Below, piece by piece: positions 2,755 through 34,100 of a DNA stretch of 64,000 nt. Position 1 is the first letter of the stretch; the number at the start of each line of letters is the position of its first letter. The notes beneath the pieces are model-generated. The model saw nothing but the letters and a program-made list of their open reading frames with translations, did no database searches and was not told where the DNA came from. This stretch comes from Liolophura sinensis (lineage: Eukaryota > Mollusca > Polyplacophora > Chitonida > Chitonidae), in the NCBI RefSeq assembly GCF_032854445.1, contig NC_088300.1, forward strand, positions 15,717,191-15,781,190, given 5' to 3'. A program made the position numbers and the translations under genes.

Positions 2755-4165
2755 GGCTGAAGGGCCCTCATGTCCCCAAATTACTCACCCATGGGCCCCA
2801 TTTCTTTTTATTTTGGAAAGGCCCGAATGGGCTGACCGAAGTATTTCCAAAATGGGACCATTACTCTTTTCCACACGTGTGGCCCATATGGCTAAGCCCA
2901 AGTAGATATCATATGGGGCCCTTATCCTTTTTGACATATGTAGCCCCTATGGTTAAGCCCAAGTAGACCTAAATCCGAAATGGGACCTTACCCTTTTCCA
3001 CACGTGTAGCCCGTATGGCTAAGCCCAAGTAGATATCATATGGGGCCCATATCCTTTTCCACATATGTAGGCCCAAGTAGGCCTAAATCCGAAATGGGAC
3101 CCTTACCCTTTTCCACACGTGTGGCCCATATGGCTAAGCCCAAGTAGATATCATATGGGGCCCTTATCCTTTTTGACATATGTAGCCCCTATGGTTAAGC
3201 CCAAGTAGATCTATATCCGAAATGGGACCCTTATCCTTTTCAACATGTGTAGCCCGTATGGCTAAGCCCAAGTAGATATCATATGAGCCCATATCCTTTT
3301 CCACATATGTAGCCCCAATGGTTAAGCCCAAGTAGGCCTAAATCCGAAATGGGACCCTTACCCTTTTCCACACGTGTAGCCCGTATGGCTAAGTCCAAGT
3401 AGATATCATATGAGCCCTTATCCTTTTCCACATATGTAGCCCCTATGGTTAAGCCCAAGTAGGCCTAAATCCGAAATGGGACCCTTATCCTTTTCCACAC
3501 ATGTAGCCCCTATGGCTAAGCCCAAGTAGGCCTAAATCCGAAATGGGACCTTTACCCTTTTCCACACATGTAGCCTGTATGGCTAAGCCCAAGTAGATAT
3601 CATATGAGCCCATATCCTTTTCCACATATGTAGCCCCAATGGTTAAGCCCAAGTAGGCCTAAATCCGAAATGGGACCTTACCCTTTTCCACACGTGTAGC
3701 CCGTATGGCTAAGCCCAAGTAAATATCATTTGAGCCCATATCCTTTTCCACATATGTAGCCCCAATGGCTAAGCCCAAGTAAGCCTAAATCCGAAATGAG
3801 ACCCTTACCCTTTTCCACACGTGTAGCCCGTATGGCTAAGCCCAAGTAGATATCATATGAGCCCATATCCTTTTCCACATATGTAGCCCCAATGGCTAAG
3901 CCCAAGTAGGCCTAAATCCGAAATGAGACCCTTACCCTTTTCCACACGTGTAGCCCGTATGGCTAAGCCCAAGTAGATATCATATGAGCCCTTATCCTTT
4001 TCCACATATGTAGCCCCAATGGTTAAGCCCAAGTAGGCCTAAATCCGAAATGAGACCCTTACCCTTTTCCACACGTGTAGCCCATATGGTTAAGCCCAAG
4101 TAATTCCCAAATAAGACCCTTATCCTTTTCCACATATATAACCCATATGGTTAATCCAAATTCTC
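2755..4165. repeat. Satellite of alternating ~60- and ~67-bp units (~127-bp dimer)
   Basis: About eleven dimers lie in tandem. One half-unit (~60 bp) carries ATATCATATG and then CCACATATGTAGCCCC. The other (~67 bp) carries CCTAAATCCGAAATGGGACC and then CCACACGTGTAGCCCGTATG. Both end in TAAGCCCAAGT. The two halves are clearly related, so this is a higher-order repeat of a diverged monomer. Each dimer usually presents one CACGTG and one or two CATATG E-box words, with some CACATG variants. The last units near 4080-4165 are degenerate. Confidence 0.9.
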
Positions 4166-11288: not shown

Positions 11289-11425
11289 AAAGGCATGTAG
11301 GCCTATACATAGTGCTAAAAGGCATGTAGGCCTATACATAGTGATAAAAGGCATGTAGGCCTATACATAGTGATAAAAGGCATGTTGGCCGATACATAGT
11401 GATAAAAGGCATGTAAACACAGTGA
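11289..11425. repeat. 28-bp minisatellite, ~5 copies
   Basis: The unit reads AAAGGCATGTAGGCCTATAC and then ATAGTGAT. Three copies are near identical and two are variant. Confidence 0.9.
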
Positions 11426-11468
11426 TAAGAATGTGGAGCCGATTCCACGATGCCATTTCTGACTTAGG

Positions 11469-11588
11469 TCAAAATTCTCATCAATGTTATCTAAAGACAA
11501 AGGTGTCCAAAATTCTCATCAATGTTATCTAAAGACAAAGGTGTCGAAAATTCTCATCATTGTTATCTTAAGACAAATGTGTCCAAAT
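11469..11588. repeat. ~39-bp tandem repeat, 3 copies
   Basis: The unit begins AAAATTCTCATCAATGTTAT and continues CTAAAGACAAAGGTGTC. The third copy is diverged. Confidence 0.85.
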
Positions 11589-12106
11589 TTCAACACCCTG
11601 TACCAAAAATTAAGCATTGTACAGAGTTTTTAAATTTTGACTTAAGTCAGATAGGACTTTGTGAAATCGGCCCAACGTGTATATTGTGATAGTTGACCAC
11701 ATTTAACACACCAGATCATATTTTATATACTTTGCTGGGCTGATTTTCTAAATTTTATGCGTGAAATGTTAACGATATTGACAAATTTACACAATTTTTC
11801 TGTAACAGTAAATGTAGATGATGAAATCTTTCTGTCACAGGAAATGTTTGATTCATTCGGCACGTGAAAATGTCTTTTTGGGGTTCCATAACACCCAATT
11901 CGACTTCTTTGGACTTCTGTACCAAGATTTTGAAGTTTAAAACCGAACTACCTGTGAGGTGTAAACTTGCAGGGTTTCTTGTGAAATGTGCTATTAGATA
12001 CTGGCACCCGGAAACTAAATTGAATATTACATAATAACGAACACTGGCTAAATAGCTCGTTTTTTCCGAAACAAGGGGAAAAACATCCTGTGACAGATTA
12101 ATGAGG

Positions 12107-12235
12107 CACGTGGGTAAATATTGCCAAAACAGACTCAAACACGTGGGTAAATATTGCCAAAACAGACTCAAACACGTGGGTAAATATTGCCAAAACAGAC
12201 TCAAACACGTGGGTAAATATTGCCAAAACAGACTC
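12107..12235. repeat. 33-bp minisatellite, 4 copies
   Basis: Four almost identical units read CACGTGGGTAAATATTGCCA and then AAACAGACTCAAA. Because 33 is a multiple of three, both strands stay open through the array, which creates long but meaningless frames (for example 11755-12204 on the minus strand). Confidence 0.95.
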
Positions 12236-27988: not shown

Positions 27989-28109
27989 TCAACCTTTCCC
28001 AACTGTGACTGCATCCATGGACTCTGTGTCGTCATCATCAAAGTACCTCTCCTCTTCATCCTGCTCACGTATCTTCAGAGAATCATAGTCAGTGTTACCG
28101 TCCACCGTA
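27989..28109 (-). CDS. CCDC97: CCDC97 coding exon 4 (last)
   Basis: The acceptor is CTGTTTTGCAG at 28120-28110. The first base completes a split Ser codon (AG|T). The exon encodes TVDGNTDYDSLKIREQDEEE then RYFDDDD and ends TVGKG-stop (27991-27989). Too short to stand out as an open frame, it was found because its start lies inside the 40-bp array. Its sequence past the array unit (LKIREQDEEERYF) is the conserved family C-terminus, so the exon is the source of the array and not a product of it. Confidence 0.88.
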
Positions 28110-31100
28110 CTGCAAAACAGAATCACAGTCAACGTTACCATCCACCGTACTGCAAAACAGAATCACAGTCAACGTTACCATCCACCGAAAAATAGAATCA
28201 TATTTAGTGTTACCGTCCACAGTACTGCAAAATAGAATCATAGTCAACGTTACCGTCCACAGTACTGCAAAACAGAATCATAGTTAGTGTTACCGTCCAC
28301 AGTACTGCAAAATAGAATCATAGTCAGTCTTACCGTCCACAGTACTGCAAAACAGAATCATAGTCAGTGTTACCGTCCACAGTATTGCAAAATAGAATCA
28401 TAGTCAGTGTTACCGTCCACAGTACTGCAAAATAGAATCAGTCAGTGTTACCGTCCACAGTACTGCAAAACAGAATCATAGTCAGTGTTACCGTCCACAG
28501 TATTGCAAAATAGAATCATAGTCAGTGTTACCATTTACAATACTGCAAAACAGAAACATAGTCAGTGTTACCATCCACAATACTGCAAAAACAGAATCAT
28601 AGTCAGTGTTACCATCCACAGTACTGCAAAACAGAATCATAGTCAGTGTTACCGTCCACAGTATTGCAAAATAGAATCACAGTCAGTGTTACCATCCACA
28701 GTACTGCAAAACAGAATCATAGTCAGTGTTACCGTCCACAGTATTGCAAAATAGAATCATAGTCAGTGTTACCATCCACAATACTGCAAAACAGAATCAT
28801 AGTCAGTGTTACCATCCACAATACTGCAAAACAGAAACATAGTCAGTGTTACCATCCACAATACTGCAAAACAGAATCATAGTCACAATTAACTTCCACA
28901 ATATTGCAGAATAGAATGACAGGATACCATCCACAGTACTGCTAAATAGAATCATAGTCAGTGTTACCGTCCACAGTACTGCAAAACAGAATCATAGTCA
29001 ATGTTACCGTCCACAGTATTGCAAAATAGAATCAGTCAGTGTTACCATCCACAGTACTGCAAAATAGAATCATGGTCAGTGTTACTGTCCACAGTACTGC
29101 AAAACAGAATCATAGTCAGTGTTACCGTCCACAGTATTGCAAAATAGAATCATAGTCAGTGTTACCATCCACAATACTGCAAAACAGAAACATAGTCGGT
29201 GTTACCATCCACAATACTGCAAAACAGAATCATAGTCAGTGTTACCATCCACAATACTGCAAAACAGAAACATAGTCAGTGTTACCATCCACAATACTGC
29301 AAAAGAGGATCATAGTCACAATTAACTTCCACAATACTGCAGAATAGAATGACAGGATACTGTCCCCCATGCTGCAAAACAGAATCACAGTCAGTGTTAC
29401 CATCCATGTACTGCAAAATAGAATCATAGTCAGTGTTACCATCCACAATACTGCAAAACAGAATCATAGTCACAGTTAACTTCCACAATACTGCAGAATA
29501 GAATGACAGGATACTGTCCACCGTACTGCAAAATAGAATCATAGTCAGTGTTACTGTCCACAGTACTGCAAAACAGAATCATAGTGTTACCATCCATGTA
29601 CTGCAAAATAGAATCATAGTCAGTGTTACTGTCCACAGTACTGCAAAATAGAATCATAGTGTTACCGTCCATGTACTGCAAAATAGAATCATAGTCAGTG
29701 TTACCATCCACAATACTGCAAAACAGAATCATAGTCACAGTTAACTTTCACAATACTGCAGAACAGAATGACAGGACATTATTGACATTATTGCAAAACA
29801 GAATGACATCATCCACAGTACTGCAAAATAGAGCGACACATCCAGTGTTACAGTCCACAGTATTGCAAAGTAGAATCATAGTCATTGTTAACTTCTACAG
29901 TACTGCAATATAGAGTGACAGGACACCGTCAACAGTACTGCAAAATAGTATGACATATCCAGTGTTAACGTAGACTGTATTGCAAAATAAAAAGACATAC
30001 TCATTGTTACCGTTCACAGAAATGCAAAATATAATCATAGTCACAGTTAATGGCAGTCAAGTTTGTGGGTGGAAACCATAGAGCCTATAGTATACTACTG
30101 CCCTCTGAAATATACAATGGACCTTATTATGAGACCATCTGACTCCTCAGCTATGGCATCAAGAGCTTAATTCGAACACACTACATGTAACCCACTACTA
30201 ACTGTCAAACTGTCTATCCTGTCCACTGATGAACCTCTCCTGTACTTACGTTGCTTATTAAAATACCTCAGACAACGCCTACATGCAACCTACCAGCACT
30301 CAAACTGTCTATCCTGTCCACTAATGAACCTCTCCTGTACTCAAGGTGTTTCTCAGAATACATCAGACAACACCTACAACACACACCTGTAGTCAACCCG
30401 TCTACCCTGTCCACTGAGCCTCTCCTGTACTTAAGGTGTTTCTCAAAATATCTCAGACAACACCTAATGTAACCCCACTGTACTCAAACTGTTTATCTTT
30501 GTCCACTTATGAACCTCTCCTGTACCTAAGGTGTTTCTCAGAACACCTCTGACAACACCTGCATGTGCCCCTACCTGTAGTCAAACTGTTTATCCTGGCC
30601 ACTAATTAACCTTTCCTGAACTCAAGATATTTCTCACAATACATCAGACAACACCTACATGCAACCCACCTGTAGTCAAACTGTCTATCCTGTCCACTGA
30701 TGAACCTCTCCTGCATAATGTGCAGAAACTCTTCTCTAAGCAACCGTTTTTCATCTGCAGAAATCTGCGGCTGATCACCTCCTTCATTTTCTGGGAAAAA
30801 AAAAATCAATTTAAAGGGAAGGATGAAAAAGAAGTTAATCAAACCAAAGAACTTATTCCATTAAGTCAGTGTTGTTAATAAACTGAAATACATGTAAGGA
30901 TATCAAGAATCAGAAACAGTTATCAAAAGGTTAGATTTACTTCTTTAGATCTTATCTTACCTTATGTTTTTTTTTCTGACAGACTGATCACCACATTACA
31001 TTAAGAAATAATTAAACGAACATTACAACTTCTATCTGTTTGCAGCAGTAAAACTAGAAGCGGACTGCTGTCAAAGTAACTTCAATAATGCAGTATCAAA

Positions 31101-34100
31101 CATGTCTTTTAATCGTGAATGATTTGTTTGGCCACGGGATCTGCCATGGTTAATGGAACATGCAAATAAAACGAACAGGCAAAACAAGGTTCATGTAAGG
31201 TCAGTGGAACCAGCTGCTGTCTCAGGTTTACAGAGGAGTAACTTACACCTGATTTTTTAAGAAATTGATGACATTACAGCATTTTTGATTTTCTCAAAGT
31301 GCACAAGTTTGCTCTCTTTGAACTGTGATATCTAAGTTATGGAACATGAGGAAAATAAAAAGGTTCACTTTTTAAACTTTACATTGTATGTGGTATATTT
31401 CATTGGTGCATATATGCATTTGGTCTACTGTTTCTTTTGGTTTTAATGGACTCAAACCAGTAAAGAAGATGGGGACTAAAGGACTCAAACCAATAAAGCA
31501 GATAGAGACGGAGAGACTCAAACCAGTAAAGAAGATGGGGACTAAAGGACTCAAACCAGTAAAGCAGATAGAGACAGAGAGACTCAAACCAGTAAAGCAA
31601 ATGGGGACTAAAGGACTCAAACCAGTAAAGCAAATAAGGACTGAGAAATTCCAGTCAGTAAAGAAGATGAGGACTGAGAGTCTCACACCAGTTACCAAAT
31701 ATGGGATGAGAGACTCAAACCAGTAAAGCAAATAAGGACTGAGAAAATCCAGTCAGTAAAGAAGATGGGGACTGAGAGTCTCACACCAGTTACCAAATAC
31801 GGGATGAGCGACTCAAACCAGTAAAGCAAATAAGGACTGAGAAAATCCAGTCAGTAAAGAAGGTGGGGACTGAGAGTCTCACACCAGTTACCAAATACGG
31901 GATGAGAGACTCAAACCAGTAAAGCAAATAAGGACTGAGAAAATCCAGTCAGTAATGAAGATGGGGACAGAGAGTCTCACACCAGTTACCAAATACGGGA
32001 TGAGCGACTCAAACCAGTAAAGCAAATAAGGACTGAGAAAATCCAGTCAGTAATGAAGATGGGGACTGAGAGTCTCACACCAGTTACCAAATATGGGATG
32101 AGCGACTCAAACCAGTAAAGCAAATAAGGACTGAGAAAATCCAGTCAGTAATGAAGATGGGGACTGAGAGTCTCACACCAGTTACCAAAAACGGGATGAG
32201 CGACTCAAACCAGTAAAGCAAATAAGGACTGAGAAAATCCAGTCAGTAATGAAGATGGGGACTGAGAGTCTCACACCAGTTACCAAATACGGGATGAGCG
32301 ACTCAAACCAGTAAAGCAAATAAGGACTGAGAAAATCCAGTCAGTAAAGAAGATGGGGACTGAGAGTCTCACACCAGTTACCAAATACAGGATGAGCGAC
32401 TGAAACCAGTAAAGCAAATAAGGACTGAGAAAATCTAGTCAGTAAAGAAGGTGGGGACTGAGAGTCTCACACCAGTTACCAAATACGGGATGAGCAACTC
32501 AAACCAGTAAAGCAAATAAGGACTGAGAAAATCCAGTCAGTAATGAAGATGGGGACTGAGAGTCTCACACCAGTTACCAAATATGGGATGAGAGACTCAA
32601 ACCAGTAAAGCAAATAAGGACTGAGAAAATCCAGTCAGTAATGAAGATGGGGACTGAGAGTCTCACACCAGTTACCAAATACGGGATAAGTGACTCAAAC
32701 CAGTAAAGCAAATAAGGACTGAGAAAATCCAGTCAGTAAAGAAGACGGGGACTGAGAGTCTCACACCAGTTACCAAATACGGGATAAGTGACTCAAACCA
32801 GTAAAGCAAATAAGGACTGAGAAAATCCAGTCAGTAAAGAAAATGGGGACTGAGAGTCTCAAACCTGTAAGCAGATGAGGACTGAGAGAATCAAACCAGT
32901 AAAGCAGATAAGGACGGTGAGACTCAAACAAGTTACCAGTTTAGGACGACGAGACTCAAACTAATAAGCAGATGAAGACAGAGAGACTCCAACCACCTGA
33001 GAGATTCATCAATTGAGCAAGTGTGGTAAGAGAAACTTACCTGCCTGTGTACAGTCGTCCTGGCGCATCCCCTCCTCCACACCCTCATCTTCTTCATCAC
33101 TGTCTGATTCCTCCTCCTCCTCCTCTTGACCCTCCTGTCAAAACACAACTTGTTTAATCAAAAGCAACATGCCAACGCATGTTATCATTCCAGTAACTTC
33201 AATGAAAAGGATTAAGAAAAAACTGCAAAATGTTCTGGTCATCATAGAGGATTTAAGTCTGCTTAGAGGATTTATAGGAAAAGATCTCTAAAAATCAAAA
33301 CAGGCATCACAGGAAGTTTATCCAACTCTAATCGCAACACTGAATGTTGGAATAACTCTTTTTACCCATGAATAAAAGATTACTGAAATAATGTTTCCAA
33401 AATTCCTTCTTTCTGGTGAACATTAGAAAAAATAGTGATGTGATGTGATGTCAGAGGTCCTAGATACCATCAGTATGGCTCATAAAGCCCACCACAGTAT
33501 TCACATATTTGAATGCCTTTAAAAAAACCTGGAAAAATATATGAAATCATTTTCACGCATAGTTTCAATATGATGAATCTTACTTCATATTTAGAGGATT
33601 TCACTCTAGTAAGAGAATTTAACTCTAATTAAAAAAATCTTACCTCCATATCCCGCAAGTTCCTATATAATTGGTTTTCTTCTTGTTGAGACAAATGTTT
33701 CATCAGAATATTAGAAAAGCTTAGATCTGATTTGTCAATTTCAGCCTGTCTTTCCTGTTCAGTCAAATGCTGCCCTATCATCTGTTCATACAAATATGGA
33801 TCCCTCCACTTCATTTCTGCATCACTGAAATATTCACCACATTCCACCATGCTCTTCATTGCCTGAAAACGACGATTTTTGACAGTCAATTTGTTTTTAG
33901 TTGAATTTAGCCTGTCTGAAATTTGTGTCAAATAGAAATCAATTTCATAGTTTCCTTTCAGAGGACTGAAGTATTCCAAGTCTTCACCCACAAGGAATTT
34001 GCAGTATCTTGACAGGAAGGTCACAGGGTTTTTCTCCAATATTGCTGAAGCAATACTTGACTTTTCCTCCAATGTTAGCTCAGGATCTCCTCTCTGCTGA

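Follow-up and report, generated by a model that had tools for sequence, protein, structure and literature searches.

The original report of a mirage, in Adh, is said to be that of Canestro et al. (2002), and Turri et al. (1995) reportedly described a minisatellite in the human 6-16 gene (IFI6) that supplies multiple copies of a splice donor. As the relevant sections of the lancelet papers describe them, mirages are minisatellite-like tandem duplications over exon-intron boundaries, which occur in Adh3, the globins BflGb6 and BflGb9, troponin C and PGBD5, with units of 10-72 bp in Adh3 and 150-160 bp in the globins (PMC3087553, PMC3902484). The passages on PGBD5 place 60- and 108-bp repeats over its splice sites and cite Adh and troponin C too (PMC3902484), and those on globin RT-PCR and Adh3 provide a precedent for normal splicing despite mirages (PMC3087553). 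Two downstream repeat units of human IFI6 serve as donors and give rise to three mRNAs, according to the part of the text that deals with them (PMC4526556). Finally, variable internal tandem repeats at exon-intron boundaries alter gene structure in human segmental-duplication genes; as summarized in that paper, they have ~30-bp units and four copies on average, lie in recent paralogues and are often retained in exons (PMC2812944).

Here, we examine the CCDC97 gene of the chiton Liolophura sinensis, in which both ends of intron 3 are mirages, with units that hold exon sequence, a splice dinucleotide and intron sequence. As in lancelet mirages, the CCDC97 arrays lie over a 3' or 5' boundary, many of their copies keep the AG or GT, and the terminal copy is the genuine junction. 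When compared to the lancelet cases, the differences are the mollusc host, the amplification of both ends of one intron, a recurrence measured over 498 exon ends, and the 50 copies of the CCDC97 acceptor array versus the 3-6 of the BflGb6 mirage. Lancelets are the reported range of mirages rather than part of their definition, and the chiton falls outside this range. The likeness to IFI6 is that of a minisatellite multiplying a gene's own splice site; the IFI6 array is donor-only, whereas in CCDC97 the acceptor array is the larger one. Unlike the human segmental-duplication repeats, those of CCDC97 form long intronic arrays in a single-copy gene. An earlier sequence-only reading of this locus knew of no described satellite of this kind, a claim that fails against the mirages published in lancelet genes (PMC3087553, PMC3902484). 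Among the papers listed in a search of open-licence full-text literature, none reports molluscan mirages, and the consulted part of a chiton genome comparison (PMC12005716) mentions neither 'tandem repeat' nor 'minisatellite'. The phenomenon is already known, as the mirage; what appears to be new is how abundant it is in a mollusc.

Within the window (the whole stretch of DNA analysed, 64,000 nucleotides), CCDC97 lies on the minus strand, where four coding exons join into a single 309-aa frame that stays open across the outermost splice sites of intron 3. The features are as follows, in window coordinates:

34237-33644, minus strand: CCDC97 exon 1, coding part from the ATG
33134-33041, minus strand: CCDC97 exon 2
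31449-32995, minus strand: intron 2 minisatellite, 98 bp x 14.9, with 33- and 65-bp subperiods (TRF)
30790-30670, minus strand: CCDC97 exon 3, donor AG/GTGGGT after 30670
30204-30713, minus strand: donor-side mirage, 95 bp x 5.4 (TRF, comparison with exon 3)
30669-28110, minus strand: CCDC97 intron 3, 2,560 nt
28110-30049, minus strand: acceptor-side mirage, 50 units of ~40 bp (TRF and wrap-around alignment)
28118-28079, minus strand: genuine junction copy, 9 nt of intron (28118-28110) and the first 31 nt of exon 4 (28109-28079)
28109-27989, minus strand: CCDC97 exon 4, last coding exon, ends at the stop

The 309-aa product matches the Pfam family CCD97-like_C (PF09747) over the full profile (positions 1-197 of 197, E=3.6e-44), which bears out the earlier statement that exon 4 continues into the conserved CCDC97 C-terminus; the naming of intron 3 and exon 4 likewise holds for the coding exons of this model. 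A PDB search with the protein for a solved relative gives no match at E<=1. In the genome searched, the Liolophura sinensis assembly of 609,464,459 bases in 632 contigs, CCDC97 is single-copy, with all four listed matches belonging to its own locus, and one haplotype is present there.

The acceptor-side array consists of head-to-tail units, each corresponding to 31 nt of exon 4 and 9 nt of the intron end, with the genuine junction as the outermost copy. TRF reports a period of 40 over 28079-29769 (43.1 copies, 85% matches), and wrap-around alignment extends the array to 30049, for 50 units with the genuine exon not counted. The array of ~48 copies that had been proposed is therefore real, and so is its terminal unit as the real junction, since exon 4 begins at 28109 right after the last unit. 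The proposed boundaries were also accurate as far as they went: 28081-28120 comprises the last 11 nt of the intron and the first 29 nt of exon 4, but the similarity extends 2 nt deeper into the exon, to the 31 nt of 28109-28079. An AG is present at 38/50 unit ends, one of which is the genuine acceptor, in agreement with the estimate of about three quarters, and the 12 losses comprise 10 AA, 1 AT and 1 gap. Although the tandem array is real, the term "satellite" is a stretch, as 40 bp x 50 at a single locus is a minisatellite.

Outside its own locus, the searches report no copy of the unit. On the minus strand of the window, the junction 40-mer has 38 ungapped matches of at least 30/40, all of them inside 28079-30049, and the best match outside the array reaches 23/40 on the minus strand and 24/40 on the plus strand. 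All 21 matches listed in a genome search with the unit are at the CCDC97 locus, a missing match being no proof of absence. A dispersed satellite family was also considered and is rejected, as every listed genome match is local.

Within the array, the identity of units to the exon junction increases toward exon 4 (Spearman 0.55, p=3e-5, n=50, where p is only indicative as the 50 units are not independent). The distal units are degenerate, some 35-bp variants occur, and there are higher-order blocks. Greater divergence of the distal units is what would be expected if the distal end is older, and the recurrence of multi-unit blocks within the array indicates that it has grown internally too, which is compatible with length turnover. 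CTGAC and the more general YTNAY are forms of the branch-point consensus. The exon 4 codons ACT GAC yield a branch-like CTGAC, the A of which lies 19 nt before the last base of the unit; CTGAC and AG occur together in 20/50 units, and YTNAY and AG in 25/50. Because the units carry this motif, the genuine exon 4 acceptor probably uses a branch point that was itself copied from exon sequence.

On the donor side, the first copy of the unit combines 44 nt from the end of exon 3 with the genuine donor and 51 nt of intron. The genuine end of exon 3 (30670) thus sits in the first, outermost unit, and the further copies are intronic, with the decoy GT kept in 4/5 donor-array sites with letters. The earlier description of intron 3 was right about the acceptor array but incomplete, having missed this exon 3 donor array at 30204-30713. 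Together, the two arrays occupy 2,406 nt of intron 3, which is 2,560 nt long. The array in intron 2 is a contrast case within the same gene: it begins 45 nt past the exon 2 donor and is without exon sequence. As this array neither reaches exon 2 nor has any sequence in common with the exon, we reject it as a third CCDC97 mirage. Other minisatellites in the window include a 127-bp family at 2846-4154 and three short arrays of 29, 38 and 33 bp at 11289-12235, the 33-bp one being 100% matching.

Use of the decoys is predicted to be costly for the protein. Among the predicted translations from the 37 AG-preceded upstream acceptors, none preserves the native C-terminus, as had been anticipated; the products range from 276 to 362 aa (median 287) versus the native 309, and most end in near-identical short tails, e.g., STVDGNTDYDSVLQYCGR. 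At the next upstream unit, the frame shift that the sequence-only reading had pointed out leads to a stop 20 residues into the tail. Both decoy donors tested give the same predicted truncation, to 290 aa. Since decoys are predicted to alter or truncate the C-terminus, the choice of the outermost site matters for the CCDC97 protein.

The CCDC97 case is not a one-off, given that the intron 3 donor is also amplified and that comparable arrays occur at other genes of the genome. We surveyed exon matches of three protein families, taking as exon ends the ends of profile matches, some of which are not true junctions, and covering the matches scored by the family search rather than all exons of each family. 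An end was counted as positive when the array unit contained the splice dinucleotide together with 6 or more nt of exon, with each candidate judged by reading. Junction arrays are found at 18/498 sampled exon ends (3.6%, exact 95% CI 2.2-5.7). The kinesin motors, with all 132 listed matches covered, have 7/264 positive ends (donors L004, L014, L019, L063 and L075; acceptors L007 and L070), and the myosin heads, surveyed as a replicate with all 81 listed matches covered, have 8/162 (donors L090, L116, L117, L122, L126 and L137; acceptors L097 and L119). The CCT chaperonins, with 36 of the 50 listed matches covered, have 3/72 (donors L146, L155 and L156). Without the borderline L075 (6 nt of exon) and L122 (two copies), the count is 16/498. 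Because some profile-match ends are not true junctions, the true rate is probably above 3.6%. The array units range from 27 to 140 bp, and the sequence of each is that of its own host exon. Donors outnumber acceptors by 14 to 4 among the survey arrays (p=0.03).

Several candidates were left out of the count: L003, L012, L077 and L107, whose arrays end about 10-25 nt before the AG; L051, L101 and L129, whose arrays begin in the intron past the donor; L163, whose unit includes the AG with about 1 nt of exon; L089, which consists of two paralogous exons 1.1 kb apart; and L020, a second partial copy of the L019 exon within the same array. At L019/L020 (C11:27412433-27415380), a kinesin exon end (ETKSTLMFGQR) with its GTAAGA donor is repeated as a 73-bp unit, and L020 is a longer second copy of the exon, 1.6 kb downstream and inside the same array; this is a possible exon duplication by a mirage. 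L163 (C8:53411619-53412932) is a chaperonin exon with arrays on both sides, one of 41 bp x 11.9 ending at the acceptor AG and one of 28 bp x 26.4 starting shortly past the exon end, and is a candidate for a further intron pair built of minisatellites. The two myosin-head exons of L089 (C1:26641745-26643836) are ~80% identical, as in mutually exclusive exons.

The arrays quite likely stem from tandem duplications that repeatedly arose across splice junctions and are tolerated since the outermost site, on the full exon, would still be chosen. A short tandem duplication would span a splice junction by chance and seed a minisatellite, which would then expand via slippage or unequal exchange. On this view, tandem duplication would be frequent in gene introns, perhaps most of all at junctions, and the arrays would be its by-products, persisting as long as splicing still takes the outermost site. 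The choice between duplicated splice sites is set by exon sequence and proximity. A decoy would bring a stub of a few dozen exon nucleotides, while the genuine site would have the whole exon, with its enhancers and terminal-exon signals. In a donor array, the genuine site would be transcribed first, and in an acceptor array it would come last, after all of the decoys. The donor excess of 14 versus 4 fits such a full-exon choice, as the genuine donor is transcribed before its decoys and the genuine acceptor after them, and the acceptor array of CCDC97 would then fall on the side that is both rarer and riskier.

We looked for selection silencing or keeping the decoy sites in 16 arrays (14 from the survey, without L122 and the three CCT arrays, and the two of CCDC97; 11 donor and 5 acceptor), ranking the decoy GT or AG against the other dinucleotides of the same array, and find no sign of either, at low power. 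Decoys are retained at 86/92 GT and 72/93 AG positions, and the mean percentile of the decoy site within its own array is 0.60 for the 11 donor arrays (p=0.17) and 0.43 for the 5 acceptor arrays. Given the donor excess, acceptor decoys may not be fully neutral.

A doubtful but serious alternative to chance seeding is that tandem duplication in the chiton lineage is mechanistically targeted to junctions, e.g., by transcription- or splicing-linked breaks. At 74 junctions whose flank holds an array, we observe 15 junction-spanning arrays versus 5.9 expected (P about 6e-4) under a rough null, restricted to kinesins and myosins, in which array ends are uniform over the exon edge and a 450-550-nt flank. 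The ends of non-spanning arrays crowd the junctions too (14 at <50 nt, 10 at 50-100, 10 at 100-200 and 15 at 200-300), and both ends of CCDC97 intron 3 are affected. On the other hand, the near-junction excess is modest (about 2.5-fold), and the test rests on approximate profile ends, hand-judged calls, the 450-550-nt flank and two families. Seeding may therefore be biased toward junctions, or the approximate null may be off. The excess speaks against a loss of arrays that span junctions and is compatible with targeting.

It is less probable, indeed unlikely, that the arrays are a functional splicing switch, in which regulated use of decoys would give a C-terminally altered CCDC97 or an unproductive mRNA. 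Such a switch would be in keeping with the loss of the native C-terminus at 37/37 AG-preceded upstream acceptors and the truncation to 290 aa at both tested decoy donors, with the half of the acceptor units that combine YTNAY and AG, and with the two downstream minisatellite units that act as splice donors in the section of the human IFI6 account concerned (PMC4526556). However, similar arrays occur at unrelated genes with unrelated unit lengths (27-140 bp), the decoy sites are kept no better than neighbouring positions, and the lancelet mirages are reported, in the sections that describe them, to be without effect on splicing (PMC3087553, PMC3902484). A search of the open-licence literature for a role of CCDC97 in splicing gave nothing usable, and we therefore do not argue for self-regulation by way of such a role.

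That repeats were collapsed or expanded in the assembly at this locus is highly improbable. Tandem arrays are assembly-prone, and the mitochondrial contig of the same assembly appears to be a concatemer, but the units are distinguished by individual substitutions, the same anatomy recurs at many independent loci, and the reads, as given in the sequencing details of the assembly paper, are HiFi with a mean of 8.3 kb at 14x, able to span a 2-kb array (PMC11068029). The published Liolophura assembly is now assigned to Liolophura sinensis (PMC12441733). The exact copy number of the CCDC97 array may nevertheless be wrong. The contig that looks like a mitochondrial-genome concatemer (C99) has seven cox1 matches, mostly ~15.5 kb apart, and a TA-rich simple repeat between trnE and cox3. 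The mitochondrial gene order is consistent with a chiton/vetigastropod-type mollusc.

Recruitment of a pre-existing intronic minisatellite as the start of exon 4 is scarcely credible, and the Pfam match leads us to reject it. The consensus of the array departs from exon 4 mainly at ACG/ACT and GAC/GAT, columns from which the direction is unreadable, but the exon part is conserved CCDC97 sequence within the full-length PF09747 match, and the array unit is listed nowhere else in the genome. Exon 4 is the source of the acceptor repeat, as first proposed, since the exon part encodes the conserved CCDC97 tail.

With recurrent duplication and outermost-site choice as the favoured reading, the arrays bear on how splice sites are selected. 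In the textbook view, local motifs (branch point, pyrimidine tract and AG; GT context) select splice sites, and yet CCDC97, a conserved gene, has dozens of near-identical, frame-breaking copies between its genuine splice sites. We tentatively suggest that splice sites with a branch-like motif, in up to 50 copies, may be insufficient to capture the spliceosome, and that minisatellite birth may be concentrated on junctions. Should RNA show the outermost site in use, the array would amount to an in vivo counterpart of experiments with duplicated splice sites, replicated naturally hundreds of times at various copy numbers within one genome. What the CCDC97 case adds is its 50 copies, the involvement of both intron ends, and an occurrence at a few percent of sampled mollusc junctions. 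The survey extends the lancelet phenomenon to a mollusc, with an estimate of its rate, and the mutational origin of the arrays and their role in intron gain are testable with public reads. If the birth of minisatellites is indeed concentrated on junctions, a few percent of junctions would carry growing arrays of near-perfect decoys, and the chiton genome would be both a standing natural experiment and a ready reservoir from which new introns and exons could be made.
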